DNA of 41,482 nt from Desulfuromonadales bacterium (lineage in GTDB: Bacteria; Desulfobacterota; Desulfuromonadia; Desulfuromonadales; Geoalkalibacteraceae): positions 1 through 41,482 of the forward strand of contig JAGXHK010000035.1 in assembly GCA_024636255.1 (NCBI GenBank), written 5' to 3'. The position numbers and the translations under genes are program-made. Position 1 is the first letter of the stretch; the number at the start of each line of letters is the position of its first letter. The notes beneath the pieces were generated by a model that saw only the letters and a program-made list of their open reading frames with translations, did not search any database and was not told where the DNA came from. This document shows, one piece after another, positions 1-39,844 of the stretch.

Positions 1-1
1 C

Positions 2-550
2 CTGGGTTCCCGCGGCGTCGAGCTGCCCGAGGGCGCGCCCGAGGACCCGCCGTCCGCCGATACCGTCTGCGGGCTGGGCAACCGCAAGAACGAGGCGTTC
101 AACGAGGTGCTCGCGCGCGACGGCGTGACGGCGTATCCCGGCAGCGTGGCGCTGCTCGACCACCTGCGCGATCGCGAGGTGCCGCTGGCCGTGGTCTCCT
201 CCTCCGCCAATGCTCCCGCCGTGCTTGCGGCCGCGGGCCTGCTGGACCGCTTCGCGCACGTCGTCGACGGCCGGGTGGCCACGGCCGAGGGCCTGGCCGG
301 CAAGCCCTCGCCCGAGACGTTCCTGCACGCGGCCGCGCTGCTGGGCGCCGGACCGGAGCGCAGCGTCGTGCTGGAGGACGCCGTGTCCGGGGTGCAGGCC
401 GGGGCGGCCGGCGGCTTCGGCGACGTGATCGGCGTCGACCGCGGCGCCGGTGAGCAGGTGCTCCGAGGGGCCGGCGCCACGGTCGTGGTCGCCGACCTGG
501 CAGAGCTGGTGCCCGCGGCGTCGACCCGGGCGGGGCAGGGGCCCCGATGA
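2..550 (+). CDS. HAD-superfamily hydrolase, beta-phosphoglucomutase-like (5' end truncated by window start)
   Basis: Frame is open from base 2 (LGSRGVELPEGAPEDPPSADTVCGLGNRKNEAFNEVL...). HAD-like motifs SSSANAPAVLAAAGLLDRF, KPSPETFLHAAALLG and VLEDAVSGVQAG. Stop overlaps the next start (ATGA). Confidence 0.85.
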   Translation: MGSRGVELPEGAPEDPPSADTVCGLGNRKNEAFNEVLARDGVTAYPGSVALLDHLRDREVPLAVVSSSANAPAVLAAAGLLDRFAHVVDGRVATAEGLAGKPSPETFLHAAALLGAGPERSVVLEDAVSGVQAGAAGGFGDVIGVDRGAGEQVLRGAGATVVVADLAELVPAASTRAGQGPR

Positions 551-2994
551 GGCGCGAGGCCCCCCCGCTGGACCCCCGGCGCTGGCCCGCGGCCCCGTGG
601 CGGCTCGTCGAGACTGCTCACGAGCCCGCTGACCTCGGCGTCACCGAGACGCTCTTCAGCGTCGCGAACGGCTACCTCGGCATGCGCGGCAACCCCGAGG
701 AGGGCCGCGACGCGCACGCGCACGGCACCTTCATCAACGGCTTCCACGAGACCTGGGACATCCACCACGCCGAGGCCGCCTTCGGCTTCGCGCGCACCGG
801 CCAGACCATCGTCAACGTGCCGGACGCCAAGGTGCTCAAGCTCTACGTCGACGACGAGCCGCTGATCCTCGGCACGGCCGACCTCGAGCACTACGAGCGC
901 TCCCTCGACCTGCGCGACGGCGTGCTGCGCCGCTCGCTGATCTGGCGCACGCCCGCCGGCAAGCGGGTGCAGGTGGACTCCACGCGCACCGTCTCCATGG
1001 TGGAGCGGCACCTCGCGCTGTTCACCCTCGAGGTGACCATGCTCGGTGGCGACGCCCCGGTCGTCGTCTCCTCCCAGCTGATCAACCGGCAAGACGGCGA
1101 GGACGAGTACCACGTGAGCGAGCACGCGATGGGCAGCCGCGGCGACCCGCGCAAGGCGAGCCGCTTCCCGGCCCGCGTGCTGCTCCCGCGCATCTCCTAT
1201 GCGGACGCGTTGCGCACCACGCTCGGTTTCCAGTGCGCCCGCTCGGGCATGACCCTGTGCGTCGCCGCCGACCATGCCATCGAGACCGAGGACCACCACG
1301 AGGTCGTCCACCGGGCCGGGGACGACCTCGTCAAGGCGGTCTTCCGCGTCGACGCGACGCGCGGCAGGACGCTGCGCCTGACGAAGTACGTCAGCTACCA
1401 CACCTCCCGCGGCGTGCCGCCGCGCGAGCTCTCGGACCGGTGCGACCGGACGCTCGACCGCGCGCGCAGCCACGGCGTGGCGCACTACCACCGGGCCCAG
1501 CGGGAGTGGTTCGACGCGTTCTGGCGCGATGCCGACGTCGAGGTCGCCGCCCGGGTCGACGGCGGCGGCCCGGGGGCAGCGGGGATGCCCGCCCGCGACG
1601 GGCGGGTGGCCTCGCCCGAGGCGCTGCAGCAGACGGTCCGCTACAACATCTTCAACATCGCCCAGGCCAGCGCGCGGGCCGACCAGCAGGGCGTGCCCGC
1701 CAAGGGCGTCACCGGCTCGGGCTACGAGGGCCACTACTTCTGGGACGCGGAGGTCTACGTGCTCCCGTTCCTCGTCTACACCCAGCCAGAGATCGCCCGG
1801 AACCTGCTGCACTTCCGGCGCCGAATGCTGCGGGCGGCGCGGCAGCGCGCTCGCGAGATGGCCCACTTCGGCGCCCTCTTCCCCTGGCGCACCATCAACG
1901 GCGAGGAGGCTTCGGCATATTACGCCGCCGGAACCGCGCAGTACCATATCAACGCCGATATCATCTACGCGCTGCGCAAATACGTCGAAATCACCGACGA
2001 CAAAGCCCTGCTTTTCAATGAAGGGGCCGAGATGCTGGTGGAGACCGCCCGCTTGTGGCTCGATCTGGGCTTCTATTCCAAGCGCCAGAACGGCAAATTC
2101 TGCCTCCACGGCGTGACCGGGCCGGATGAATACAATACCGTGGTCAACAACAATGCCTACACCAACCTCATGGCCCGCGAAAATCTCTGGTGCGCAGCGC
2201 AAACCGTTCGTTACATGCGGGACAATTTCCCCGAGCACTTCCAGAACCTGAAGCACCGCACCGGCCTCGATTCCGGCGAGGTCGAGCAGTGGCAAAAGGC
2301 CGGCGACAGCATGTACATCCCGTACGATGAGGAGCTCGGGATCAATCCGCAGGACGACAACTTTCTCGATCGCGAGGTCTGGGACATCGAAGGCACGCCG
2401 CGCAGCCGGTTTCCCCTGCTGCTCTACTATCATCCGCTGGTCATCTATCGGCATCAGGTGATCAAGCAGGCCGACGTGGTGCTCGCCATGTTCCTGCTCG
2501 GCGATGAATTTTCCCTGGCACAGAAAAAACGCAATTTCGAGTATTACGACCCGCTGACCACCGGTGATTCGTCGCTCTCGGCCTGCATCCAGAGCATCAT
2601 CGCCACCGAAATCGGCGATATGGCGAATGCGCTCAAATACGCCCGCTACGCCGTGCTCATGGATCTTGCCGACGCGGGCGGCAACGTCAAGGACGGCTGC
2701 CACATCGCCTCGATGGGGGGAACCTGGATGGTCATGGTGCACGGCTTCGGCGGCATGCGCGATTACGGCGGGCAGATCAGCTTCACCCCGCGCCTGCCCG
2801 CCATCATGAACCGGCTGCGCTTTCGCCTGACGGTGGGCAATCAGCTGCTGGAGGTCGATGTGGCCCGCAAGGAGTGCACCTACCTTCTCAAGGAGGGGAC
2901 CGAGTTGCCCATCCTCCACATGGGCAAAGAAGTTCTGGTGCGGCGCGGCGAGAGCGTCACCCTGCCTGTTCGCCAGCCCGATTCAACTGAATAG
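547..2994 (+). CDS. Glycoside hydrolase family 65 protein (trehalose/kojibiose/maltose phosphorylase-like); composition changes abruptly near 1.9 kb
   Basis: 815 aa; GYLGMRGNPEEG, GVTGSGYEGHYFWDAEVYVLPF, FPWRTINGEEASAYYAAGTAQYHINADI and GVTGPDEYNTVVNNNAYTN are GH65-like motifs. Confidence 0.85.
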   Translation: MRREAPPLDPRRWPAAPWRLVETAHEPADLGVTETLFSVANGYLGMRGNPEEGRDAHAHGTFINGFHETWDIHHAEAAFGFARTGQTIVNVPDAKVLKLYVDDEPLILGTADLEHYERSLDLRDGVLRRSLIWRTPAGKRVQVDSTRTVSMVERHLALFTLEVTMLGGDAPVVVSSQLINRQDGEDEYHVSEHAMGSRGDPRKASRFPARVLLPRISYADALRTTLGFQCARSGMTLCVAADHAIETEDHHEVVHRAGDDLVKAVFRVDATRGRTLRLTKYVSYHTSRGVPPRELSDRCDRTLDRARSHGVAHYHRAQREWFDAFWRDADVEVAARVDGGGPGAAGMPARDGRVASPEALQQTVRYNIFNIAQASARADQQGVPAKGVTGSGYEGHYFWDAEVYVLPFLVYTQPEIARNLLHFRRRMLRAARQRAREMAHFGALFPWRTINGEEASAYYAAGTAQYHINADIIYALRKYVEITDDKALLFNEGAEMLVETARLWLDLGFYSKRQNGKFCLHGVTGPDEYNTVVNNNAYTNLMARENLWCAAQTVRYMRDNFPEHFQNLKHRTGLDSGEVEQWQKAGDSMYIPYDEELGINPQDDNFLDREVWDIEGTPRSRFPLLLYYHPLVIYRHQVIKQADVVLAMFLLGDEFSLAQKKRNFEYYDPLTTGDSSLSACIQSIIATEIGDMANALKYARYAVLMDLADAGGNVKDGCHIASMGGTWMVMVHGFGGMRDYGGQISFTPRLPAIMNRLRFRLTVGNQLLEVDVARKECTYLLKEGTELPILHMGKEVLVRRGESVTLPVRQPDSTE

Positions 2995-3893: not shown

Positions 3894-4805
3894 TCATCTT
3901 TGCTGCCTCGCATCCCTTCTTTCATGCAAGGCTCTGCATACAGCCTCTTCAAATCCTGTCAATTCAAAGGGGAGTAACTCCCGGATCCGTGTGTCGTTGC
4001 ACACGACATCATTTTGTACACCGGAAATAAGTGCCTGGGCCAGGCCGGTTTTTACCGGCGTGACCAGACCGATCCAGCGGGCGATGGCGCGGGGCAGAAG
4101 CGGGGGTACCGGAGCCGCGAGATGCGTACTGCCAAGGACCGCCGCAAAGCGCTCAAGCATTTCATAATAGGTCATGACCTCAGGGCCGCCGATATCGAAG
4201 GTATCCCCCCCGGTGCGCTCCTCGTACAGGCAGCCGACCAGGTAGCGGATCACATCGTCCACGGCGATCGGTTGACAGCGCGCCTGCAGCCAGTGATGCT
4301 CTGGAAGCACCGGCATGGTGCGCACCAGAAAGCGGATCATCTCATAGGATGACCCGCCAGCGCCAATAATCACACCGGAGCGCAGAACCGTAGTCTGAAA
4401 ACGTCCACTGCGCAGGATCTCTGCGACCTGCTGGCGACTCTGAAGGTGCTCGGAGAGGCCCGCTCCCGATTCGCCCAGCCCCGAGAGATAGATCACCCGG
4501 CGCACTCCGGCCTGCTCGGCCGCCTCTGCGAAATGGGTCGCCGCCCGTGCCTCGGTATCGCTGAAGCTCTTCTCTTCGCCCATAGAATGCACCAGATAGT
4601 AGGCCACATCGACGCCTGCCAGGGGGCCGTCCAGACTCTGGCGCTGGAGCAGATCGCCGGTCGCCTGCTCCACATCCGCGGGGAAGCTGTGACCGGCGTT
4701 TCTGGAAAGAGTTCTCACGCGCACATTGTCCGCAAGCAGGGCAGGGACCAGGCGTCTGCCGATAAATCCGGTGGCTCCGGAGACAAGTACGGTGCCGATG
4801 CTCAT
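3894..4805 (-). CDS. NAD(P)-binding SDR/NmrA-like epimerase family protein
   Basis: 303 aa; VLVSGATGFIGRRLVPALL Rossmann motif, VDVAYYLVHSMG, RRVIYLSGLGE. Confidence 0.8.
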   Translation of the reverse strand: MSIGTVLVSGATGFIGRRLVPALLADNVRVRTLSRNAGHSFPADVEQATGDLLQRQSLDGPLAGVDVAYYLVHSMGEEKSFSDTEARAATHFAEAAEQAGVRRVIYLSGLGESGAGLSEHLQSRQQVAEILRSGRFQTTVLRSGVIIGAGGSSYEMIRFLVRTMPVLPEHHWLQARCQPIAVDDVIRYLVGCLYEERTGGDTFDIGGPEVMTYYEMLERFAAVLGSTHLAAPVPPLLPRAIARWIGLVTPVKTGLAQALISGVQNDVVCNDTRIRELLPFELTGFEEAVCRALHERRDARQQR

Positions 4806-5006
4806 TTGCGTCGTCCTTTGCGGCTAAAGCTCCGTTTTAAGTCTATCTCTCTCATCATCCTGCGCAATAGACCCGGAACGCTGCGGTTCCGCTCTGCCTT
4901 TCGCGTCGCTGCACCTTGCCAGGGGGGCATTCCCATGGTAATTTTCAGAGCAAGATACCGGGGATTCAAGCAGTTTACCTGATTGCCAAGCGACGGGCCA
5001 GAGGCG

Positions 5007-6143
5007 ATGCAGACAGATCAGGATTGCGCGCAGTTCGAAATTCATCGCGGCGCAGAGGGAAGAGTCGAGCTGGAACTCTCAGGCCGCTGGACCATGCAGA
5101 GCCGGCTGCCCGATCGCGAACTGCTGGCAGCAATCTGCCAACCCGAAGTCAGACAGCTGGCTTATCGGACTCGGGATCTCGAGGCCTGGGACAGCATCCT
5201 GATCACTCTTCTGCGCCGGATCGAGAGAGCCTGCGGAGCGCGGGGAGTGGCCGTCGATCGCTCGGGCCTGCTCGAGAGCATCCGCCGCATGCTGCAGATG
5301 GCTGAGGCCGTTCCCGAGCGCCAAGGCGCCCGGCGCGAGGACAAAAAGAACCCCTTCGTCATAAACGTGGGGGAGCAAACCCTCGATCTGGGCCAGAGAT
5401 CTCTCGACACTCTGGCCTTTCTTGGTGATACGACACGCAGCATCGGGCGCTTTTTCACCGGCCGGGCCCGCTTTCGCCGCCGCGATCTGCTGCTCTATAT
5501 CCAGGAGAGCGGCGCCAATGCTTTTCCCATCGTCACGCTGATCAGCCTGCTGGTCGGGCTGATCCTGGCGTTCGTCGGGGCGGTCCAGCTGCAGATGTTC
5601 GGCGCAGAGATCTTCATCGCCAACGCCGTGGGGCTGGGGATGGCCCGCGATATGGGAGCGATGATGACCGGCATCATCATGGCCGGACGCACCGGCGCAG
5701 CCTTTGCCGCCCAGCTCGGCACCATGCAGGTCAATGAGGAGATCGACGCGCTGCGCACCCTGGGGATCTCGCCGATAGATTTTCTGGTGCTGCCGCGCAT
5801 ACTCGCTCTGACCCTGATGCTGCCGCTGCTCACCATCTATGCGGATCTGATGGGCATCATCGGCGGCTCTTTCGTCGGCGTTTTTCTTTTCGATATCACC
5901 CCGATGCAGTATTTTATCCAGACCCGCGACTCGGTCGCGCTGAATCATTTCTGGGTTGGACTCGCAAAAAGCGGCGTCTATGGAGTGATCGTCGCGCTTG
6001 CCGGCTGCCTGCGCGGCATGCAGTGCGGCCGCAGCGCAATGGCGGTGGGAGGCGCAGCCACCTCGGCTGTGGTTACGGGGATCGTCTGGATTGTGGTCTC
6101 GTGTGCCATACTGACGGTGATGTTTCACATGCTCGGGATATGA
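5007..6143 (+). CDS. mlaE: MlaE-family ABC lipid transporter permease with an N-terminal STAS-like extension (ORF track start is TTG at 4983; ATG at 5007 preferred)
   Basis: C-terminal part is MlaE-like: FGAEIFIANAVGLGMARDMGAMMTGIIMAGRTGAAFAAQLGTMQVNEEIDALRTLGISPIDFLVLPR. Followed by ATPase and MCE genes. Confidence 0.88.
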   Translation: MQTDQDCAQFEIHRGAEGRVELELSGRWTMQSRLPDRELLAAICQPEVRQLAYRTRDLEAWDSILITLLRRIERACGARGVAVDRSGLLESIRRMLQMAEAVPERQGARREDKKNPFVINVGEQTLDLGQRSLDTLAFLGDTTRSIGRFFTGRARFRRRDLLLYIQESGANAFPIVTLISLLVGLILAFVGAVQLQMFGAEIFIANAVGLGMARDMGAMMTGIIMAGRTGAAFAAQLGTMQVNEEIDALRTLGISPIDFLVLPRILALTLMLPLLTIYADLMGIIGGSFVGVFLFDITPMQYFIQTRDSVALNHFWVGLAKSGVYGVIVALAGCLRGMQCGRSAMAVGGAATSAVVTGIVWIVVSCAILTVMFHMLGI

Positions 6144-6168
6144 ACGCGTGGTGTTCGAATGGGGCGCG

Positions 6169-6996
6169 ATGGACAAACGTGAGGATAAATCCGTGAACGG
6201 CTGCGAGAACACTGGCGGGGAGCGCGAAAAAGCGCAGCCGCACATCCGGGTGGAAAATCTCACCATGGCGTACGGGGACTTCGTCATCCAGCGTGATCTT
6301 AATTTTACCATCCGCCGCGGCGATATCTTCATCATCATGGGCGGCAGCGGCTGCGGCAAAAGCACTCTGCTGCGCCACCTTGTCGGTCTCCATCGCCCCG
6401 CGGCCGGGCGGGTCGATTTCGACGGCATCGATTTCTGGGCCGTTGAGGATGCCGAGCGCGCCCGCCTCATGCGCCTCTGCGGCGTTCTCTATCAGCGCGG
6501 CGCGTTGTGGAGTTCGCTGACACTGGCCGAGAACATCGCTCTGCCGCTGCAGGAGTACACCAGGCTCAATTCGGCTCAGATTCGCGAACTCGCCTCTCTC
6601 AAGCTCTCCCTTGTGGGGCTGACCGGCTTCGAGGACTATTATCCTGCAGAAATCAGCGGCGGGATGCAGAAGCGAGCCGCGCTGGCCCGCGCCATGGCTC
6701 TTGATCCCGAGGTCCTTTTTTTCGATGAGCCCTCGGCAGGGCTCGACCCGATCAGCGCTCGCATGCTCGACGACCTGATCATCGAACTGCGTGAAAGCCT
6801 GGGGGCGACAGTGGTGGTGGTGACGCATGAGCTGGCGAGCATCTTTGCCATCGGCAGCGATTCAATCTTTCTCGATGCGGAGACGAAAACCATAATCGCC
6901 CAGGGGCCGCCGCGAGACCTGCTCGAACAATGTTCTGAGCCCAGGGTGCGTCAATTCCTGACCCGCGGGGAAGAAAAGAAGAAGGGAGATTCATGA
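6169..6996 (+). CDS. mlaF: MlaF-family ABC transporter ATPase (ORF track start GTG 6148; ATG 6169 likely)
   Basis: Walker A GGSGCGKSTLL, signature ISGGMQKRAALARAMALDP, Walker B VLFFDEPSAGLDP; sits between the permease and MCE genes. Confidence 0.88.
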   Translation: MDKREDKSVNGCENTGGEREKAQPHIRVENLTMAYGDFVIQRDLNFTIRRGDIFIIMGGSGCGKSTLLRHLVGLHRPAAGRVDFDGIDFWAVEDAERARLMRLCGVLYQRGALWSSLTLAENIALPLQEYTRLNSAQIRELASLKLSLVGLTGFEDYYPAEISGGMQKRAALARAMALDPEVLFFDEPSAGLDPISARMLDDLIIELRESLGATVVVVTHELASIFAIGSDSIFLDAETKTIIAQGPPRDLLEQCSEPRVRQFLTRGEEKKKGDS

Positions 6997-7979
6997 GCAA
7001 AAAAGCGAATCCGGCTCTGATCGGCGCCTTTGTTATTGGCGCTCTGATCCTTCTGGCCGCCGCGGTTATCGTGCTCGGCACGGGCAGGCTGTTCAAGGAG
7101 CACCCCCGGCTCGTGCTCTATTTCCCCGGTTCGGTGCAGGGTCTGAACATTGGCGCGCCTGTGGTTTTTCGCGGCGTCAAGGTGGGGACGGTTAGCGATA
7201 TCCGACTCCAGTTCGACGAGCAGGATGTTTCGTTTCGCATTCCGGTGGTCATTGAAGTTGATCCCGAGCGCATCAACCTGATCGACGGCGTTCAGGACCC
7301 GCTCAAGACCGAGCCCGGCGCCTTTGTCGACCGGCTGGTCGCCAGGGGACTGCGCGCCCAACTGCAGATGCAAAGCCTGGTCACCGGACAACTGCTGATC
7401 CAGCTCGATATGCGCCCGGATAAAGAGCCGCGCTTCGCTCAGGTCGAGACCGCATATCCGCAGATCCCGACCATCCCCTCGCAATTCGAGCAAATCACCC
7501 GGACCATCGAAAGCATTCCCCTTGAAGATGTTATTGAGCAGGCGCTTTCCGCCCTGGAGGGGATCGAGCGCGTGATCAACTCGCCCGAGCTCGCCAGAAG
7601 CATCCGCGGCGTGGACGAGACCCTGCAGGACGTGCGTGGGCTGGTGCGCAACATGAACGAGCGCCTGGGCACCACGGATGCCGCCATGCAGAGCACGCTC
7701 GCCGAGGTGCGTGCCTTGGTCACCGATCTCGACCGCCAGGTCGAACCGCTGGCGCTGAGCCTGCGCGAGACATCCGAGACCGCACAAGAAACCTTTGCCG
7801 CCGCCCATGATGCCATGGGGAACCTGGACGCCGTACTCGGCGAAAATTCCGAAGTCCGCTACCGCCTCCTGCAGACGCTCGAGGAAGCCGGCGCCGCGGC
7901 GCGCTCTTTGCGCGTGCTGACCGACTATCTCGAGCGGCATCCCGATGCCCTGCTGCGAGGCCGCCCTCAAGGAGAATAA
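6993..7979 (+). CDS. mlaD: MlaD/MCE-domain substrate-binding protein
   Basis: 328 aa; one N-terminal TM, then VQGLNIGAPVVFRGVKVGTVSDI typical of MCE domains, then a helical C-terminus. ATGA overlap with the ATPase gene. Confidence 0.88.
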   Translation: MSKKANPALIGAFVIGALILLAAAVIVLGTGRLFKEHPRLVLYFPGSVQGLNIGAPVVFRGVKVGTVSDIRLQFDEQDVSFRIPVVIEVDPERINLIDGVQDPLKTEPGAFVDRLVARGLRAQLQMQSLVTGQLLIQLDMRPDKEPRFAQVETAYPQIPTIPSQFEQITRTIESIPLEDVIEQALSALEGIERVINSPELARSIRGVDETLQDVRGLVRNMNERLGTTDAAMQSTLAEVRALVTDLDRQVEPLALSLRETSETAQETFAAAHDAMGNLDAVLGENSEVRYRLLQTLEEAGAAARSLRVLTDYLERHPDALLRGRPQGE

Positions 7980-7981
7980 TC

Positions 7982-8608
7982 ATGCTGCTGCAGCGCCTTG
8001 TGTTGCTGGCTCGCTATGCGACGCTGTCTCTATCGCTACTTCTGACCGGCTGTATCACCCTTGGCAGCGCCCCTGGTGAGCCGACCCGGCACTTCACGCT
8101 CCATGCCCTGAGCGAAAGCAGAGCCACACCGGCCGAATCCAGCACGCAGGGCCTGACGATCGGCGTCGGTCCCATCGACCTGCCCTCGTATCTGGAGCGG
8201 CCGCAGATCGTCACCATGCGCCAGCAAAGCGAATATGAACTCTCATCCTCCGCCCAATGGGGCGAACCTCTCAGCGAGAATGTAAAGCGGGTGCTCGCGG
8301 CGAACCTGCGCGAACTGCTGGCCACCGACCGGGTCGTCCTCTTTCCCTGGCGACGGGCCATACCGGTCGATCTGCAGGTGGTTGCCGATATCCAGCGCTT
8401 CGACGCCGGACCGGATGATCAGGCGCGGCTGGTGGTGAACTGGTCGATTCTCGATGCGAAGGGGCAATTGCTTGAGATGCAACAGAGACGATATCAGGAA
8501 CAGGTGGGCGATATCAACGAGCCCGCGGCCGTAGTGGCGGCTCTGAGCCGACTTCTGGCCGGCTTGAGCCGCGATTTTGCCGATGCGATCTTGCGCGCCG
8601 GTACGTGA
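7982..8608 (+). CDS. ABC-type transport auxiliary lipoprotein (PqiC-like)
   Basis: Lipobox LLLTGC; TIGVGPIDLPSYLERPQIVTM and VKRVLAANLRELLATDRV resemble the PqiC/auxiliary lipoprotein family; last gene of the MCE operon. Confidence 0.8.
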   Translation: MLLQRLVLLARYATLSLSLLLTGCITLGSAPGEPTRHFTLHALSESRATPAESSTQGLTIGVGPIDLPSYLERPQIVTMRQQSEYELSSSAQWGEPLSENVKRVLAANLRELLATDRVVLFPWRRAIPVDLQVVADIQRFDAGPDDQARLVVNWSILDAKGQLLEMQQRRYQEQVGDINEPAAVVAALSRLLAGLSRDFADAILRAGT

Positions 8609-8709: not shown

Positions 8710-9334
8710 AATCCGAGGTCAAGCGCTGATAGAAGGAGGGGCCGAGAAAGCGGAAGGATTCTGCGAACTGGTTGAAATCGTCGATATGACCGCGGTCAAA
8801 CGCGCGATCTTCCGGTCGCCACTGCGTGAAATAAAACGCCACGACCCGCTCGCCGCGACGTGCGAAGATAACGTTGACCAGCACCTTCTGAGCGAGTACC
8901 GGCTCGTGTCCGACAGTTTCGGCCCGCAGGGCCTCTTTGCCGAAAAGGGTGGTCTTCTCCAGACGCGGCTCCTCGAAATTAACCCGCGCCGCCCACAGGA
9001 AACGCTCGAAGAATTCCTCCTGGCGCTCCTCAAAGACCCGCGAATAGCCGAAGGGTTCCTCGGCATACGCCATGGTCGATTCGCAGGGGAAAACGCGCGG
9101 CATCCTGTCCGCGCAACTGTGGTAGAAGGCGACGGAGTAGTCATCCTCATCGAGTTGGATCAGACTCCAGGGCGCCGGGGGCGGCACGAACTCGTATTCC
9201 TGCTGCCAGACCACTGTCCCCGCGGGGGTGCGCAATGCGGCCAGAGGATCGGCGGGCTGCGGCTGCTGTACGGCGCAGCCGCTCAGAAAAAGCAACGCAC
9301 AGGCGAGAAAACGGAACAAGGTCGACCTGCTCAT
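8708..9334 (-). CDS. Putative lipoprotein of unknown function
   Basis: 208 aa; MSRSTLFRFLACALLFLSGCAVQQ lipobox. Start overlaps the upstream peroxiredoxin stop by 4 bp. Confidence 0.6.
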   Translation of the reverse strand: MSRSTLFRFLACALLFLSGCAVQQPQPADPLAALRTPAGTVVWQQEYEFVPPPAPWSLIQLDEDDYSVAFYHSCADRMPRVFPCESTMAYAEEPFGYSRVFEERQEEFFERFLWAARVNFEEPRLEKTTLFGKEALRAETVGHEPVLAQKVLVNVIFARRGERVVAFYFTQWRPEDRAFDRGHIDDFNQFAESFRFLGPSFYQRLTSD

Positions 9335-28179: not shown

Positions 28180-29796
28180 CTAGTCTTTTTTGCGATTGAT
28201 CAGGGCCTGTTGGCCGATTGTGAGAACATTATTCACCAGCCAGTAGATCACCAGGCCAGAGGGGAAGTTGAGAAACAAAAAGGTAAAAACAATCGGCATG
28301 GCCAGGAAAATTTTCGCCTGGGTCGGGTCCATCTGTGTGGGTGTCATTTTTTGCTGAAGAAACATCGTGGCACCCATCAGCAACGGCGTGACGTAGTAGG
28401 GGTCCTTAGCAGAAAGATCGGTGATCCAAAGAAAAAATTCGGCCTGGCGTAACTCGATAGAGAACAATAACACCTTGTACAGTGCAAAGAAAACAGGGAT
28501 CTGGATGAGCATCGGCAGACATCCGCCAAGTGGGTTGACCCGGTGTTCTTTGTATAGATTCATCATCTCCACATTGAGGCGCTGCTTGTCATTCTTATGC
28601 TTTTCCCGCAGTTTCTGCATTTCAGGCTGCAGTTTCTGCATATTTTTCATTGAACTATAGCTTTTCTGAGTCAGAGGCCAGAAAAAAGCTTTTATAATCA
28701 CGGTGAGAAGAATAATGGCAACCCCGTAGTTGCCGATGAAAGAGTAGAAAAATTTCAGAACATGCAGAAGCGGCCGAGAGAGAAAACCGAAAAAGCCGAA
28801 ATCAATTGCCTCCGATAGTTGATGATCGACACTTTTAAGAATATCGAAATCTTTCGGGCCAAAATAACCAAGAAAATCAAAACGTGCGGACTCTCCCGGG
28901 TTCAGACTCCGGTAAGGGGTGATTACCGAATTGATCACCAGATCGCCGCTTCCCTCGATCCGTGCCCGCTCGCTCGAGCCTACCAGAGGAACAAATGCGG
29001 AAAGAAAATATTTCTTCTGAAAGCCGGTCCAGGCAATATTATTTTGAAATTCCTTTGACCCTTCAGCAAGATCATCGACATCGACATTATTTAATTCGCC
29101 ACCCGAATATATGGACGGACCAACGAATTCATTGTAAGAACCCGCCATCGACTCGTCCCAAATTTCAGCCACCCCGACCGCAATATTTCCCGACAGCGTC
29201 CCGCCGCTGCGATTGAGAACTTCGACGGAAAAATCGACGTCGTAACTCTCCGCAGAGAACCGATAAACTTTGGCGATATCAAGGCCGTTATCAAGGCGGG
29301 TCGAAAAAACGATTTCGACCTCTTCCCCGGGAGCAAGACGGACTTCATCGCGCTCCAAATTCACCTGATAGAGAGCGTCTTCTTCTACCCCGAACCCATC
29401 GGAACCGCGGGTAAACAAACTTCCCCCCGGGCGCCCGCTAAAGTCGGAAAGGGTAACGGCGCCGGTTACCTTTTCCTTATCCTTTTGATATTCGGTCAAC
29501 GCGACCTGCTTAATTACCCCCCCTTGGGAGGACAGGATATACTCATAGATCCCGCTGCGAACGGTTATTCGACGCGCTTCGGCTTGCCGATCGGCGGTGA
29601 AACGCGGAGCCGGGACGGCATCCGCAGTCCCCTCAATCGAGGATGCCGGCGTCTGCTCAGCCACAGGTGCTCGGGTTTCCTCGGTTTGCTGATCAGCCGG
29701 CCCACCGGTCGGCTTTTCCGGGGGAAACAGGACGGTAAATCCCATCCAGACGATAAGCATAAGCAGGATGGCGATCAGTGTCCGTTTGTTTTCCAT
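28180..29796 (-). CDS. yidC: Membrane protein insertase YidC
   Basis: MENKRTLIAILLMLIVWMGFTVLFPP; YGVAIILLTVIIKAFFWPLTQKSYSSMKNMQKLQPEMQKLREKHKNDKQRLN. Confidence 0.97.
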   Translation of the reverse strand: MENKRTLIAILLMLIVWMGFTVLFPPEKPTGGPADQQTEETRAPVAEQTPASSIEGTADAVPAPRFTADRQAEARRITVRSGIYEYILSSQGGVIKQVALTEYQKDKEKVTGAVTLSDFSGRPGGSLFTRGSDGFGVEEDALYQVNLERDEVRLAPGEEVEIVFSTRLDNGLDIAKVYRFSAESYDVDFSVEVLNRSGGTLSGNIAVGVAEIWDESMAGSYNEFVGPSIYSGGELNNVDVDDLAEGSKEFQNNIAWTGFQKKYFLSAFVPLVGSSERARIEGSGDLVINSVITPYRSLNPGESARFDFLGYFGPKDFDILKSVDHQLSEAIDFGFFGFLSRPLLHVLKFFYSFIGNYGVAIILLTVIIKAFFWPLTQKSYSSMKNMQKLQPEMQKLREKHKNDKQRLNVEMMNLYKEHRVNPLGGCLPMLIQIPVFFALYKVLLFSIELRQAEFFLWITDLSAKDPYYVTPLLMGATMFLQQKMTPTQMDPTQAKIFLAMPIVFTFLFLNFPSGLVIYWLVNNVLTIGQQALINRKKD

Positions 29797-29848
29797 AAGA
29801 TGTCCTCCGCTGAAGCGCAGTCTGTTTTTTCATGAAAGATGATAGAGT

Positions 29849-30073
29849 TTACGAATCCTTGCAGCGAACCGGGTCGAATCCGCCGGGATGCCAGGGATGA
29901 CAGCGCAAAATACGCCGGAAACCGAGCCACAATCCCTTGATGGCACCATGGATCTGCAAGGCTTCGATGCAGTAGGAAGAACAGGAAGGATAAAAGCGGC
30001 AGGTGGGCGGATTGAGAGGGGAGATGACTTGCTGATAAAAACGGACCGTCAGGATCAGAGTTTTTTTGACCAT
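29849..30073 (-). CDS. yidD: Membrane protein insertion efficiency factor YidD
   Basis: [36 protein letters not shown]; lies between yidC and rnpA. Confidence 0.95.
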
Positions 30074-30423
30074 GAGGTGTTCTTCCCAAGTCCCAGCAGG
30101 AGTTCCTCCCTTACCTGGGAGAAATTGAGCCGAGCCGCCCCCGGCTTGGCAATAATCGAGAAATCGTAATCGTTTTCAAATTCGGTGCTAAATTTCCGAA
30201 AAAATTCCCGCACAAATCGCTTGACGCGGTTGCGTACAACGGCGCCGCCCACTCTGCGACTCGCTGTTATTCCAAGGCGACTCGGCGGTTTTTCCCGTGC
30301 TCTGACGTAAACAATAAAGTGGGGCGTTTTCAACAAACGCCCCTCCTTTTTGACCTCAAGAAACTCCTTGCGCCGCCTTAATCTCTTTTCGGGAGGGTAG
30401 GTGAATTCACCCCGGCCCGGCAC
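30055..30423 (-). CDS. rnpA: Ribonuclease P protein component (proposed GTG start at 30423; frame open upstream to 30672)
   Basis: [63 protein letters not shown]. Confidence 0.88.
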
Positions 30424-30428
30424 GCGGA

Positions 30429-30581
30429 TTACTTCTTCGGCGTACTTGCGCACAGGCTCTTGCGCCCGCGTGAGCGACGACGGTTGATCAAATGACGGCC
30501 GTTTTTCGTCTGCATCCGCTTGCGGAACCCGTGTGTTCTTTTTCTCCGGATTCGACTCGGCTGATAAGTTCGTTTGGACAT
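30429..30581 (-). CDS. rpmH: 50S ribosomal protein L34 (not in ORF track)
   Basis: Manual translation gives [50 protein letters not shown]; upstream ggagc SD. Confidence 0.97.
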
Positions 30582-30732
30582 TCTTTTGCTCCTTTATCTC
30601 TCTTCGAAAAGCGTCAAGTAAAGGGGATTTTAAAACACACATCAACTCCGAAGTCAAGCGCGAAAAGGCCAACCCGTTGCTCTTCGAATCGCCAAATCCG
30701 AAAGAGAAACTCCCGAGTTAAATTTTTTCTCT

Positions 30733-30741
30733 TTATCCACA
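30733..30741 (+). promoter_or_regulatory. DnaA box
   Basis: TTATCCACA, perfect consensus, between rpmH and dnaA. Confidence 0.75.
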
Positions 30742-30954
30742 AAATATCCAGCGACAAAGAGGCTTGCATTCCGTGCGCCCTCTCTGTTACTTTATTCAAT
30801 CCTTTAAAGGATTCAGAATATTAGATACAAAGCCTTGAAAATAAAGATTTTTTCCTTGTTCCACAGCTGTTTATAAGCTGTGAATTGTCTGTATTGAAAA
30901 GGCGGGAGAGAACGCGAACGCCTCCCCTTATAAAAAAAGATAATTGTATTTTCA

Positions 30955-32310
30955 ATGGATAGACTCTGGCGCGAAACATTAACAGCTCTTGAACAGACGA
31001 TGAAGCCCCAACACTTCACAACCTGGATTAAACCGATCCGGTTTGTGCGGGTCGATAAATCGGAAGTTTATCTGGAGGTGCCGAATCGCTTCTTTCTCGA
31101 CTGGGTCCGGGATAATTATGCCGGCCAGATCACGCAGACCCTCTCCTCGATCGGCGCGATCGATTACCAGGTCAGCTTCCAGGTGGCGCAAAAACATCCC
31201 GGGGAAAAACCCGGCCGCGGTTCCGAACCTCGCCCGGAGCCGGCCATGCCGCAGCCGCCGGTAAAAACTCCCGCCAAATCGGAGAGCTTTGCCTCGAATC
31301 TGAATCCGAAGTATATTTTTACCGACTTTGTCCCAGGATCATCAAATCAATTTGCTCACGCCGCCGCAATGGCTGTGGCGAATAATCCCGCAACCACTTA
31401 CAATCCCCTGTTCATCTACGGAGGCGTTGGCTTGGGAAAAACCCATCTTGCCAATGCAATCGGCAATGCCATCCTCAAGAAGAATCCGGAGATGAGCGTC
31501 TGCTATTATGCTTCCGAAAAATTTATGAATGAGTTGATCAACTCGCTGCGCTATGCCCGAATGGATGAATTTCGCAACAAATTTCGCTCCATGGATGTCC
31601 TGCTTATCGACGATGTTCAGTTTATCGCCGGCAAAGAACGTACGCAGGAAGAGTTTTTCCACACGTTCAACGCCCTTTACGAGTCGCACAAGCAGATCGT
31701 TGTGACCTCGGATAAATTTCCGAAGGAGATACCGGGTCTCGAGGAGCGTCTGCGCTCGCGCTTTGAGTGGGGGCTGATTGCAGATATACAACCACCGGAT
31801 GTGGAGACCAAACAGGCGATTCTGCGCATGAAGGCAGAGAAAAACGGGATTGAGCTTCCGGAGGATCTGGCTATTTTTCTGGCCAATTCCGTATCAAGCA
31901 ACGTTCGGGAACTCGAGGGCTATCTGATAAGGCTGGGCGCTTACGCCAGTCTGACTTCCACCCCGATCACCCTGGAGCTGGCGCGCGACGTTCTCAAGGA
32001 TATTCTGATCGAAAAGAACCGGGAATTGGGGGTGGATGAAATCCAGAAGGTCGTCGCCTCTCATTTCGGCATAAAAATTTCAGATCTCAAATCGGCCAAA
32101 AGACTTAAGGCCCTGGTGCTGCCTCGCCAGATTGCCATGTATCTTTCGCGTCAACTTACGTCTCTCTCATTTCCCGAGATCGGCGATCGCTTCGGTGGCA
32201 AGGATCATTCGACAATCATTCATGCGATTAAGAAAATTGAGAAGAAAATGGAGGAGGACCTGCAGCTTCGCTCAGCGATCACAACGCTCAGAAATAGCCT
32301 CTCCCGTTAA
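30955..32310 (+). CDS. dnaA: Chromosomal replication initiator DnaA
   Basis: NPLFIYGGVGLGKTHLANAIGN; DVLLIDDVQFIAGKERTQEEFFHTFNAL; C-terminal FGGKDHSTIIHAIKKIE. Confidence 0.98.
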   Translation: MDRLWRETLTALEQTMKPQHFTTWIKPIRFVRVDKSEVYLEVPNRFFLDWVRDNYAGQITQTLSSIGAIDYQVSFQVAQKHPGEKPGRGSEPRPEPAMPQPPVKTPAKSESFASNLNPKYIFTDFVPGSSNQFAHAAAMAVANNPATTYNPLFIYGGVGLGKTHLANAIGNAILKKNPEMSVCYYASEKFMNELINSLRYARMDEFRNKFRSMDVLLIDDVQFIAGKERTQEEFFHTFNALYESHKQIVVTSDKFPKEIPGLEERLRSRFEWGLIADIQPPDVETKQAILRMKAEKNGIELPEDLAIFLANSVSSNVRELEGYLIRLGAYASLTSTPITLELARDVLKDILIEKNRELGVDEIQKVVASHFGIKISDLKSAKRLKALVLPRQIAMYLSRQLTSLSFPEIGDRFGGKDHSTIIHAIKKIEKKMEEDLQLRSAITTLRNSLSR

Positions 32311-32543
32311 AATGGAGTGTGCATAACCTCGGTATGTGCCGGGGGATGGATCGGGGGATAACTACTTTTCCACAATCGGCCCGCCAGAAGGGTCGCTTCG
32401 GCCACACCCCCATGCACACGCGCCAGAGCGGACTGCGACTGGGCCAGAGCTGCGTTTCAACATATACACAGCCCCTACTATGTACTACTATTTAAAGCTT
32501 TAAAACCTATAATAACAATAGGTCATGTGAATAAGGAGGCTTT
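32311..32543. other. Candidate oriC (dnaA-dnaN intergenic region)
   Basis: TGTGCATAA (32318-32326, TTATGCACA on minus strand), TTTTCCACA (32366-32374), ATATACACA (32462-32470), then GCCCC and TACTATGTACTACTATTT plus an AT-rich tract. Confidence 0.75.
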
Positions 32544-33662
32544 ATGAATTTCGCCATTGAAAAGGAATTTTTTCTCAAGGGGCTTGCCAGAATTCAAGGC
32601 ATCGTCGAAAGACGCAACACCATCCCTGTTCTGGCCAATGTGCTGATCGAGACCCATGAGGGAGAAATCTGTCTGACGGCTACCGATCTCGAAGTCGGAA
32701 TGCGATCCTTTTATCCGGCTAAAATAAAAGAATCGGGACGGATCACCGTTTCGGCTAAAAAGCTCTACGAAATCGTGCGCGAGTTGCCCGAGGGTGAACT
32801 CTCCTTTAAAGCGAAAGAGAACTGCTGGATCGAGATCCGCTCGGGCAAAGCAATTTTCAACATTGTCGGTCTTTCACCAGAGGAATTTCCCCATTTTCCC
32901 GATACGGCGCAGCAGGGGTTCATCTCGCTGCCTCCCGAAACTCTCAGGGAGATGATAGATAAAACCACTTTCGCCATGTCGACGGACGAAACCAAATACA
33001 ACCTCAATGGCATTTTTTTCCGCTCCTTCAGCGACGATCAGGTGCATCATCTGAGCCTGGTGGCCACCGACGGCCATCGCCTGAGCAAAATAGAGCGTGA
33101 AATCCCCGCAGTAGATATTCCGCAGTTGCACAAAGGGGTTATCTTCCCGCGCAAGGGGATTATGGAGTTGAAGAAAATGTCGGAAGAGGGAGAGGGGAAT
33201 CTCGAACTCGGCTTCATAGAGAACAGCGCAGTCATCCGGCGCGCCAAAACCGTGGTCGTCATGCGCCTGGTTGATGGTGAATTTCCCGAGTACGAACGGG
33301 TCATTCCGCGCGACAACGAGGTTTCGGCTATCATCCCGACCGCTGTTTTCCTGCAGGCCCTGCGCCGCATGGCGATTCTATCCAGCGAAAAATCGCGCGG
33401 TGTAAAAATATCCCTGCAGCCTGGCGTGCTGGAGGTTTCCTCTTCGAACCCCGAATTTGGCGACGCCCGTGAAGAGATCGGGGTAGACTTTGATGGACAG
33501 GCGCTGTCCATCGGTTTTAATGCCCGCTATCTTCTCGATATTCTTCAGAGCATGGAGGCGGAGAAGGTTGATTTGCGGCTCAAGGACAACCTTTCCCCGG
33601 GGCTTCTCGTGCCCGAGGAAGAGGGGAATTACCTGGCGGTGATCATGCCGATGCGTCTTTGA
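32544..33662 (+). CDS. dnaN: DNA polymerase III beta subunit (sliding clamp)
   Basis: 372 aa; MNFAIEKEFFLKGLARIQGIVERRNTIPVLANVLIE; C-terminal YLAVIMPMRL; aaggagg SD. Confidence 0.97.
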   Translation: MNFAIEKEFFLKGLARIQGIVERRNTIPVLANVLIETHEGEICLTATDLEVGMRSFYPAKIKESGRITVSAKKLYEIVRELPEGELSFKAKENCWIEIRSGKAIFNIVGLSPEEFPHFPDTAQQGFISLPPETLREMIDKTTFAMSTDETKYNLNGIFFRSFSDDQVHHLSLVATDGHRLSKIEREIPAVDIPQLHKGVIFPRKGIMELKKMSEEGEGNLELGFIENSAVIRRAKTVVVMRLVDGEFPEYERVIPRDNEVSAIIPTAVFLQALRRMAILSSEKSRGVKISLQPGVLEVSSSNPEFGDAREEIGVDFDGQALSIGFNARYLLDILQSMEAEKVDLRLKDNLSPGLLVPEEEGNYLAVIMPMRL

Positions 33663-33733
33663 GGAATCGGCTCCCGCCAAACGGAAAGGCTTTTTTCTAT
33701 TAAAAAGCTTTTTTTTTGACGGGAGAGATTGGT

Positions 33734-37223
<3,490 letters not shown>

Positions 37224-37330
37224 AAGCCGGACCTGTAGGCATAAGGCGCCGGTGCCGGGAACCTGCTCTTCTCCCGGCGCCTTGCGGGCCAGGAGCCGAT
37301 CGGCCGATTTTAAAAAAGGACCATTGAACA

Positions 37331-39844
37331 ATGCTCGAATCATCAAAATTCACCGTCAATATCGAAGACGAGATGCGCAAGTCCTACATGGACTATGCGA
37401 TGAGCGTTATTATCGGGCGTGCCCTGCCCGACGTGCGCGATGGGCTCAAACCGGTCCACCGACGGGTTCTCTTTGCTATGCACGATCTGGGCAACGAGTG
37501 GAACAAGCCGTATAAAAAATCGGCGCGCGTGGTCGGCGACGTGATCGGTAAATATCATCCCCATGGCGACTCAGCGGTCTACGACACGATCGTGCGTATG
37601 GCGCAGGAATTCTCGATGCGCCATCCTCTGGTCGACGGCCAGGGGAACTTCGGCTCGATCGATGGCGACTCGGCCGCAGCGATGCGTTACACCGAGGTGC
37701 GCATGGCCCGCCTGGCTTCGGAACTGCTCGACGATATCGAAAAAGAGACGGTCGATTTCTCACCGAACTATGATGAATCTCTGCATGAACCGATTGTCCT
37801 GCCGGCGAAATTCCCGAATCTTCTGGTCAACGGCGCAGAAGGTATCGCGGTGGGCATGGCGACCAAGATTCCGCCTCATAACCTGGGCGAAATCGTTGAC
37901 GGGCTGGTGGCGATCATCGAGGATCCGCGCATCCGAATGGATGAACTGATCGAGAAGATTCCCGGGCCGGATTTTCCCACCGCCGGTTTCATCTTCGGTG
38001 TCGAAGGGATTCGCGAAGCCTATCGCACAGGGCGGGGTATCCTGCAGATGCGCGCGCGGGCCCTGGTCGAGGTGGACAAACGGACCGGCCGCGAGGCCAT
38101 CGTTATTACGGAAATCCCCTATCAGGTCAATAAGGCCCGCCTGATCGAAAAGATAGCCGAGCTGGTCAAAGACAAGAAAATCGAGGGAATATCGGACCTG
38201 CGCGACGAGTCGGACCGCGAAGGAATGCGCATTGTCATTGAACTCAAGCGCGATGCGATCCCCGGCGTCATACTCAACCAGCTCTTCAAGATGACGGCGA
38301 TGCAGTCCAGCTTCGGCATCATCATGCTCGCTATTGTCTCCGGACAGCCGCAGATACTCGATCTGCGCCGGATGCTCGAGCTGTTCATCGAGCACCGCAA
38401 AGAGATCGTCACCCGCCGCTGCATCTTCGAGTTGAAGAAGGCCGAGGCCCGTGCTCACATCCTCGAAGGCCTCAAAATTGCGCTTGAGAACCTCGATGAG
38501 GTGATTCAGATCATCAAAACCTCGGCCAATCCCCGCGAAGCCCAGGATCGATTGATCGAGCGCTTCAAATTCAGTGAAATCCAGGCCAAAGCCATTCTCG
38601 AGATGCGTCTGCACCGACTCACCGGCCTCGAGCGCGACAAGATCATCGCCGAGTATGAAGAAGTTCTGGCAACGATACGCCGGCTCAAGGAGATTCTTGC
38701 CTCCGAGGTGGAAATCCTCAAGATCATCAAGACCGAGCTTCTCGAGATCAAAGAGCGCTTCGCCAACCCGCGGCGCACCGAAATCGTGCCGCACACCGGC
38801 GATCTCTCCCTCGAAGACCTGATTGTCGAAGAAGACATGGTGGTGACCGTTTCTCATACCGGCTACATCAAGCGCAACGCCGTTTCTCTTTACCGTGCCC
38901 AGCGCCGCGGCGGCAAAGGCAAGACCGGGATGCGCCCCAAGGAAGAGGACTTCGTCGAGCGTTTATTCATTGCTTCGACGCACAGTTACATCCTGATCTT
39001 TACCGATCTGGGGAAGGTGTACTGGCTCAAGGTTCACGAAATACCCCAGGGCGGCCGGGCCTCGCGCGGCAAAGCGATTGTCAACCTGCTGAATCTGGCA
39101 CCCAATGAACGCGTGATGACCATCCTGCCGGTCAAGGACTTCGAGGAGGGCAAATACATCATTACCGCCACCCAGAAAGGGGTGGTCAAGAAAACCGAAC
39201 TGATGGCGTATTCCAAGCCGCGTACCGGCGGGATCATCGCTCTGACCATCGACGAAGATGATCATCTGATCGCGGCCCGGCTCACCGATGGTGAGCAGGA
39301 TATACTGCTCGCCACCCGCAACGGCAAAGCGATTCGCTTTCACGAAACCGGCGCCCGTTCCATGGGACGTACCGCTCGCGGAGTGCGCGGCATGATGCTC
39401 GAGGGCGACGACGAGGTGATCGGGATGGAGGTTGTCACCGGGGCGACCGCCGCGACTCTGGTCACAATCACTGAAAACGGCTATGGCAAACGGACTGAAA
39501 TCGACGAATACCGGGTTCAGAGCCGCGGGGGGAAGGGGATCATCACCATCAAAACCTCGGCGCGCAATGGCAAGGTCGTCGATATCAAGCTGGTTGGTGA
39601 AGATGAGGACCTGATGCTTATCACTAATCGCGGCAAAGTGCTGCGCACCCGGGTTTCGCATCTCTCGATCATCGGGCGCAATACCCAGGGGGTACGCATG
39701 ATGGTCCTTGAACCGGAGGAGCGCATCGTCGCCGTGGCCAAGCTCGCCGAAAAGGATGAGGAGAATGGACTCGAACTCGGTCCAGAAGCTGAAGAAGAGG
39801 ATTCTGAAGGAGGAATTGAGCCGGAGGAAGGGCAGGAAGAGTAG
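37331..39844 (+). CDS. gyrA: DNA gyrase subunit A
   Basis: 837 aa; [48 protein letters not shown]; GyrA box QRRGGKG; acidic C-terminal tail. Confidence 0.98.

Follow-up and report, generated by a model that had tools for sequence, protein, structure and literature searches.

Related systems

Glycoside hydrolase family GH65 includes inverting alpha-glucoside phosphorylases such as kojibiose phosphorylase (3WIQ) and maltose phosphorylase (1H54). Substrate recognition in kojibiose phosphorylase involves residues Trp391/Glu392 and Thr417, and, as recounted in the same source, laboratory chimeras of kojibiose and trehalose phosphorylases (Yamamoto et al.) can retain activity when segments of the two enzymes are combined within the (alpha/alpha)6 barrel (PMC8537180). 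Chimeras of another kind arise in metagenome assembly: in benchmarks with Illumina metagenomes, the number of chimeric contigs per genome ranged from 2.6 (SPAdes) to 22 (MEGAHIT) (PMC11261854), and species with low to intermediate coverage were the most prone to them (PMC7881036).

The locus described here shares features with each of these systems. The window (the whole stretch of 41,482 nt analyzed, from a draft genome of the order Desulfuromonadales) encodes a GH65 protein with all three domains of the 3WIQ and 1H54 phosphorylases, yet its two halves belong to different GH65 lineages. As in the chimeras of Yamamoto et al., as far as they are described in the source cited above, two GH65 segments are joined within the (alpha/alpha)6 barrel, in this case in loop 3; those chimeras were deliberate, whereas the two parents of the window protein do not differ in this loop, and hence no new specificity would be expected even if the gene were real. 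As in interspecies chimeric contigs (PMC11261854, PMC7881036), DNA of two organisms is found with the foreign piece at the contig tip, with the difference that here the join is in frame and within one gene family, leaving a protein that looks intact.

Gene structure at the contig start

The window starts at base 1 of its contig (C115), where the first open reading frame is already open. This frame (positions 2 to 550, forward strand) is the 3' part of a gene for a beta-phosphoglucomutase-like hydrolase of the HAD superfamily (Pfam PF00702/PF13419), cut by the contig start; its best NCBIfam model was TIGR02009 (beta-phosphoglucomutase family), with a score that fell below the cut-off of the model on this fragment. 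An ATGA at 547-550 couples it to the GH65 ORF (547-2994, forward strand, 815 codons), in which the N-terminal, central catalytic and C-terminal GH65 domains (PF03636, PF03632 and PF03633) were all detected above cut-off, and whose best solved relative was kojibiose phosphorylase 3WIQ. On the basis of family membership, the HAD-GH65 pair is compatible with a pathway in which an alpha-glucoside is cleaved by phosphorolysis and the resulting beta-glucose 1-phosphate is passed to beta-phosphoglucomutase.

Compositional switch within the GH65 ORF

GC content reached 74% in bases 1-1900, while a background sample of 855 windows of 1.9 kb, drawn from 474 kb of the same genome (42 contigs other than C115), showed a mean of 58.7% (SD 2.9%) and a maximum of 67.1%. 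Codons ending in A or T represented 2.9% of the GH65 ORF 5' of nt 1909 and 19% of it 3' of that position. Maximum-likelihood analysis of third-position A/T along the 815 codons placed the best changepoint at codon 455, nt 1909 (2-lnL interval 1768-1915), with a log-likelihood ratio (LLR) of 30.8 compared to a maximum of 9.5 across 1000 permutations. The sharp compositional junction that the first-pass annotation had proposed near 1909 was recovered by this analysis, and its counts by eye were close: about 2 A/T-ending codons had been estimated among the 95 preceding 1909, where 3 were counted, and the estimate of about 12 among the following 44 was exact. The reading frame and the GH65 motifs were also found to continue unbroken across the switch, as had been noted.

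The GC3 of the half encoding residues 1-454 was 0.97, compared to 0.98 in GH65 genes of Nocardioidaceae and 0.76 in those of the host's own order, while the half encoding residues 455-815 had a GC3 like that of the own order. Reference genes showed no split of this kind, either in Nocardioidaceae (0.98 in each half) or in the own order (0.76 and 0.77 in the two halves). A GC step of 0.13 was also present on one other contig, so the step by itself is not unique; the junction stands out by its absolute GC level, its GC3 and its ancestry, not by the size of the step. On that contig, C24 (L157), GC rises near position 9300 from 0.56 to 0.69, the largest step among the sampled contigs and as large as that at the junction; GC3 there was about 0.8 on the coding strand, no sign of foreign origin was found, and the step looks like ordinary gene-level variation.

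Compositional variation of this sort is what could be invoked for a gene without any join, inherited vertically, with a 5' end that would merely be GC-rich and more conserved towards actinobacteria, since GC varies along other contigs and one of them carries a step of similar size. Such an explanation is at odds with the equal GC3 of the two halves in own-order GH65 genes, and it is refuted by the reversal of identities and the half-by-half trees given below, which leave it a negligible probability.

Ancestry of the two halves

Residues 1-454 (positions 547 to 1908, forward strand) were 71% identical to the GH65 protein of Nocardioides kribbensis and 65-70% identical to those of other Nocardioidaceae, but only 46-50% identical to own-order GH65 proteins. 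The pattern was reversed for residues 455-815 (1909 to 2994, forward strand), with 65-75% identity to own-order GH65 proteins and about 50-56% to those of Nocardioides and other actinobacteria. Accordingly, the tree of residues 1-454 placed the window sequence inside Nocardioidaceae (SH-aLRT 99), and that of residues 455-815 placed it inside the own-order clade (support 100). Taken together, the reversal of identities and the two differing trees exclude a common history of the halves. The GH65 protein is thus a hybrid of two parents, its N-terminal domain and the start of its central domain being derived from the foreign, Nocardioides-like half and the remainder being native to the host.

The upstream gene followed the same pattern. 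The HAD fragment was 70-75% identical to the HAD protein whose gene precedes GH65 in the majority of the Nocardioides loci compared and 52-55% identical to the HAD proteins of those own-order genomes that have one, and no match to it was found upstream of GH65 in the same-family genomes G001-G003. Given that it resembles the gene preceding GH65 in Nocardioides, bases 1-1908 are one colinear piece of actinobacterial DNA. In three loci of the host's order (L127, L128 and L131) an HAD gene lies directly upstream of GH65, its product being 52-55% identical to the HAD protein of the window.

These results agree with the suggestions of the first-pass annotation that the 815-residue protein may be a hybrid and that the ATGA-coupled HAD phosphatase is actinobacterial; the separate comparison of the two halves that it had called for returned best matches in different phyla (Nocardioides and the own order, respectively). 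Two parts of a single contig therefore differ in phylogenetic origin, as is characteristic of chimeric metagenome contigs.

The junction zone

The switch falls in the peptide GALFPWRTINGEEASAYYAAGTAQ, which is identical in both lineages, and the surrounding DNA (1876 to 1910, forward strand) is nearly identical in both parent lineages. The window matched two Nocardioides loci (L033 and L107) exactly over 1876-1910 and an own-family locus (L008) exactly over 1882-1910; as the exact matches end at 1910 in both lineages, the join lies in, or at the 3' edge of, 1876-1910. Relatives of both parents thus share a word of 29-35 nt with the window at this point, in line with the first-pass proposal that the switch lies in conserved catalytic-domain sequence where unrelated GH65 genes could have near-identical DNA. 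Words of 21 and 27 nt that GH65 genes of the own order have in common with actinobacterial ones were concentrated at this site; of 1200 such gene pairs, 108 shared a 27-mer, and the junction was the commonest place for it. Within the bin the junction word occurred once, even with up to 3 mismatches allowed, and it was absent from the viral contigs searched. In an alignment to 3WIQ the join fell within loop 3, after the position of Trp391/Glu392 and before that of Thr417.

In principle, some 30 bp of identity might serve to anchor recombination, and a genuine, recent event would have to be considered in which Nocardioides-like donor DNA crossed over at this word in a homology-facilitated manner, replacing the 5' half of the host GH65 gene together with the DNA upstream, bringing the HAD partner along and producing a real hybrid phosphorylase. 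Since the frame is kept at the join and both parents encode the same peptide there, the product could fold; each half is uninterrupted. On the other hand, the exchange would have crossed phyla, retaining the full codon usage of the donor and including its neighboring gene, and the bin is a fragmented draft in which the foreign DNA occupies precisely the end of a contig, with no second crossover visible within that contig. Moreover, no hybrid relative was seen among the GH65 proteins found in 136 genomes of the order, in which the best whole-protein identity was 62%. Neither a foreign tract between native flanks nor a hybrid in independent relatives, either of which would have argued for recombination, was observed, and we consider such an origin improbable.

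Origin of the join

The bin is a draft of 201 contigs (82% complete, 2.1% contamination). The initial 1.9 kb of the contig is foreign, and this tract has no end inside the contig, the arrangement expected of a chimera at a contig end; there is no native flank upstream of it within the contig, although one may lie past the contig end. A same-family N-terminal half was used as query to look in the rest of the bin for the native 5' half of the GH65 gene, which was not found; apart from the window, the query matched only a distant paralogue on contig C50. This second GH65 gene (L134, about 4682-6976) has an open frame of 834 aa, is about 30% identical and is apparently native. In the same-family genome G003 a small lipoprotein is encoded upstream of GH65; it was not found in the bin, and ribosomal protein S7 also gave no match there, as can happen in an incomplete bin. 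Contig C81 (6.4 kb), which carries OtsA, a gene located upstream of GH65 in G003, was considered as the broken partner contig and discarded, since no GH65 adjoins that gene.

The contig is very probably a metagenome-assembly chimera formed at the shared word, and the 815-residue hybrid enzyme is probably not real. We infer that a short-read assembler would have taken the word of approximately 29-35 bp around 1876-1910, common to two unrelated GH65 genes, and linked the native 3' half of the host gene to the 5' half of the gene of a Nocardioides-like actinobacterium living alongside the host, with the HAD-GH65 pair of the latter then continuing to the contig end; the binner would have retained the contig because 95% of it is native. 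Loss of the native 5' half at the break would account for its absence from the bin. Of the two origins offered by the first-pass annotation, assembly chimera or homologous recombination, the former is much likelier: in a fragmented draft bin the foreign piece forms the end of a contig, and no other hybrid appeared among the GH65 genes found in the 136 genomes. By comparison, a replacement across phyla that keeps the frame, shows no amelioration and stops at a contig end would be a rare event, which favors an artefact.

Some features speak against a chimera. The ORF is uninterrupted and would encode a hybrid that is plausible as a full-length enzyme, yet a join at homologous codons yields an unbroken frame automatically. 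The shared word is also short relative to the large k of final assembly rounds; on the foreign side of the join, the sequence that the host itself carries could share more than the word of about 30 bp with the actinobacterial gene.

Consequences for annotation

The contig needs trimming at its start (bases 1 to about 1910), and neither the 815-residue protein nor the HAD fragment should be entered as genes of the host genome. The native 3' half indicates that a GH65 gene is present at this locus in the host, but the 5' half of that gene is absent from the assembly. The significance of a chimera lies in quality control: conserved catalytic motifs of carbohydrate-active enzymes can give rise to in-frame, normal-looking hybrids in metagenome-derived databases, which checks of frame or length would miss. 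Were the join real, it would represent a clear case of cross-phylum intragenic recombination and a natural hybrid enzyme in a Gram-negative bacterium.

The contig downstream of the junction

Downstream of GH65, an Mla-type lipid transport operon (4983 to 8605, forward strand; MlaE, ABC ATPase, MlaD and ABC_trans_aux, assigned by Pfam) marks the host as an outer-membrane bearer, and the same genes follow GH65 in the same order in the same-family genomes G001 and G003. Beyond it lie mnmG/gidA, yidC (28180-29796, reverse strand), dnaA (30955-32310, forward), gyrB (34815-37223, forward) and gyrA (37331-39844, forward), the stretch from yidC to gyrA (28180-39844) being a chromosomal origin-type gene cluster. 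The conserved Mla synteny and the origin cluster indicate that the remainder of the contig is native, with the gene content of an ordinary chromosomal origin region in a Gram-negative host. GC content was lowest (41%) at 30501-31000; this segment lies immediately 5' of dnaA, extends over the start of the gene and likely corresponds to the oriC region.
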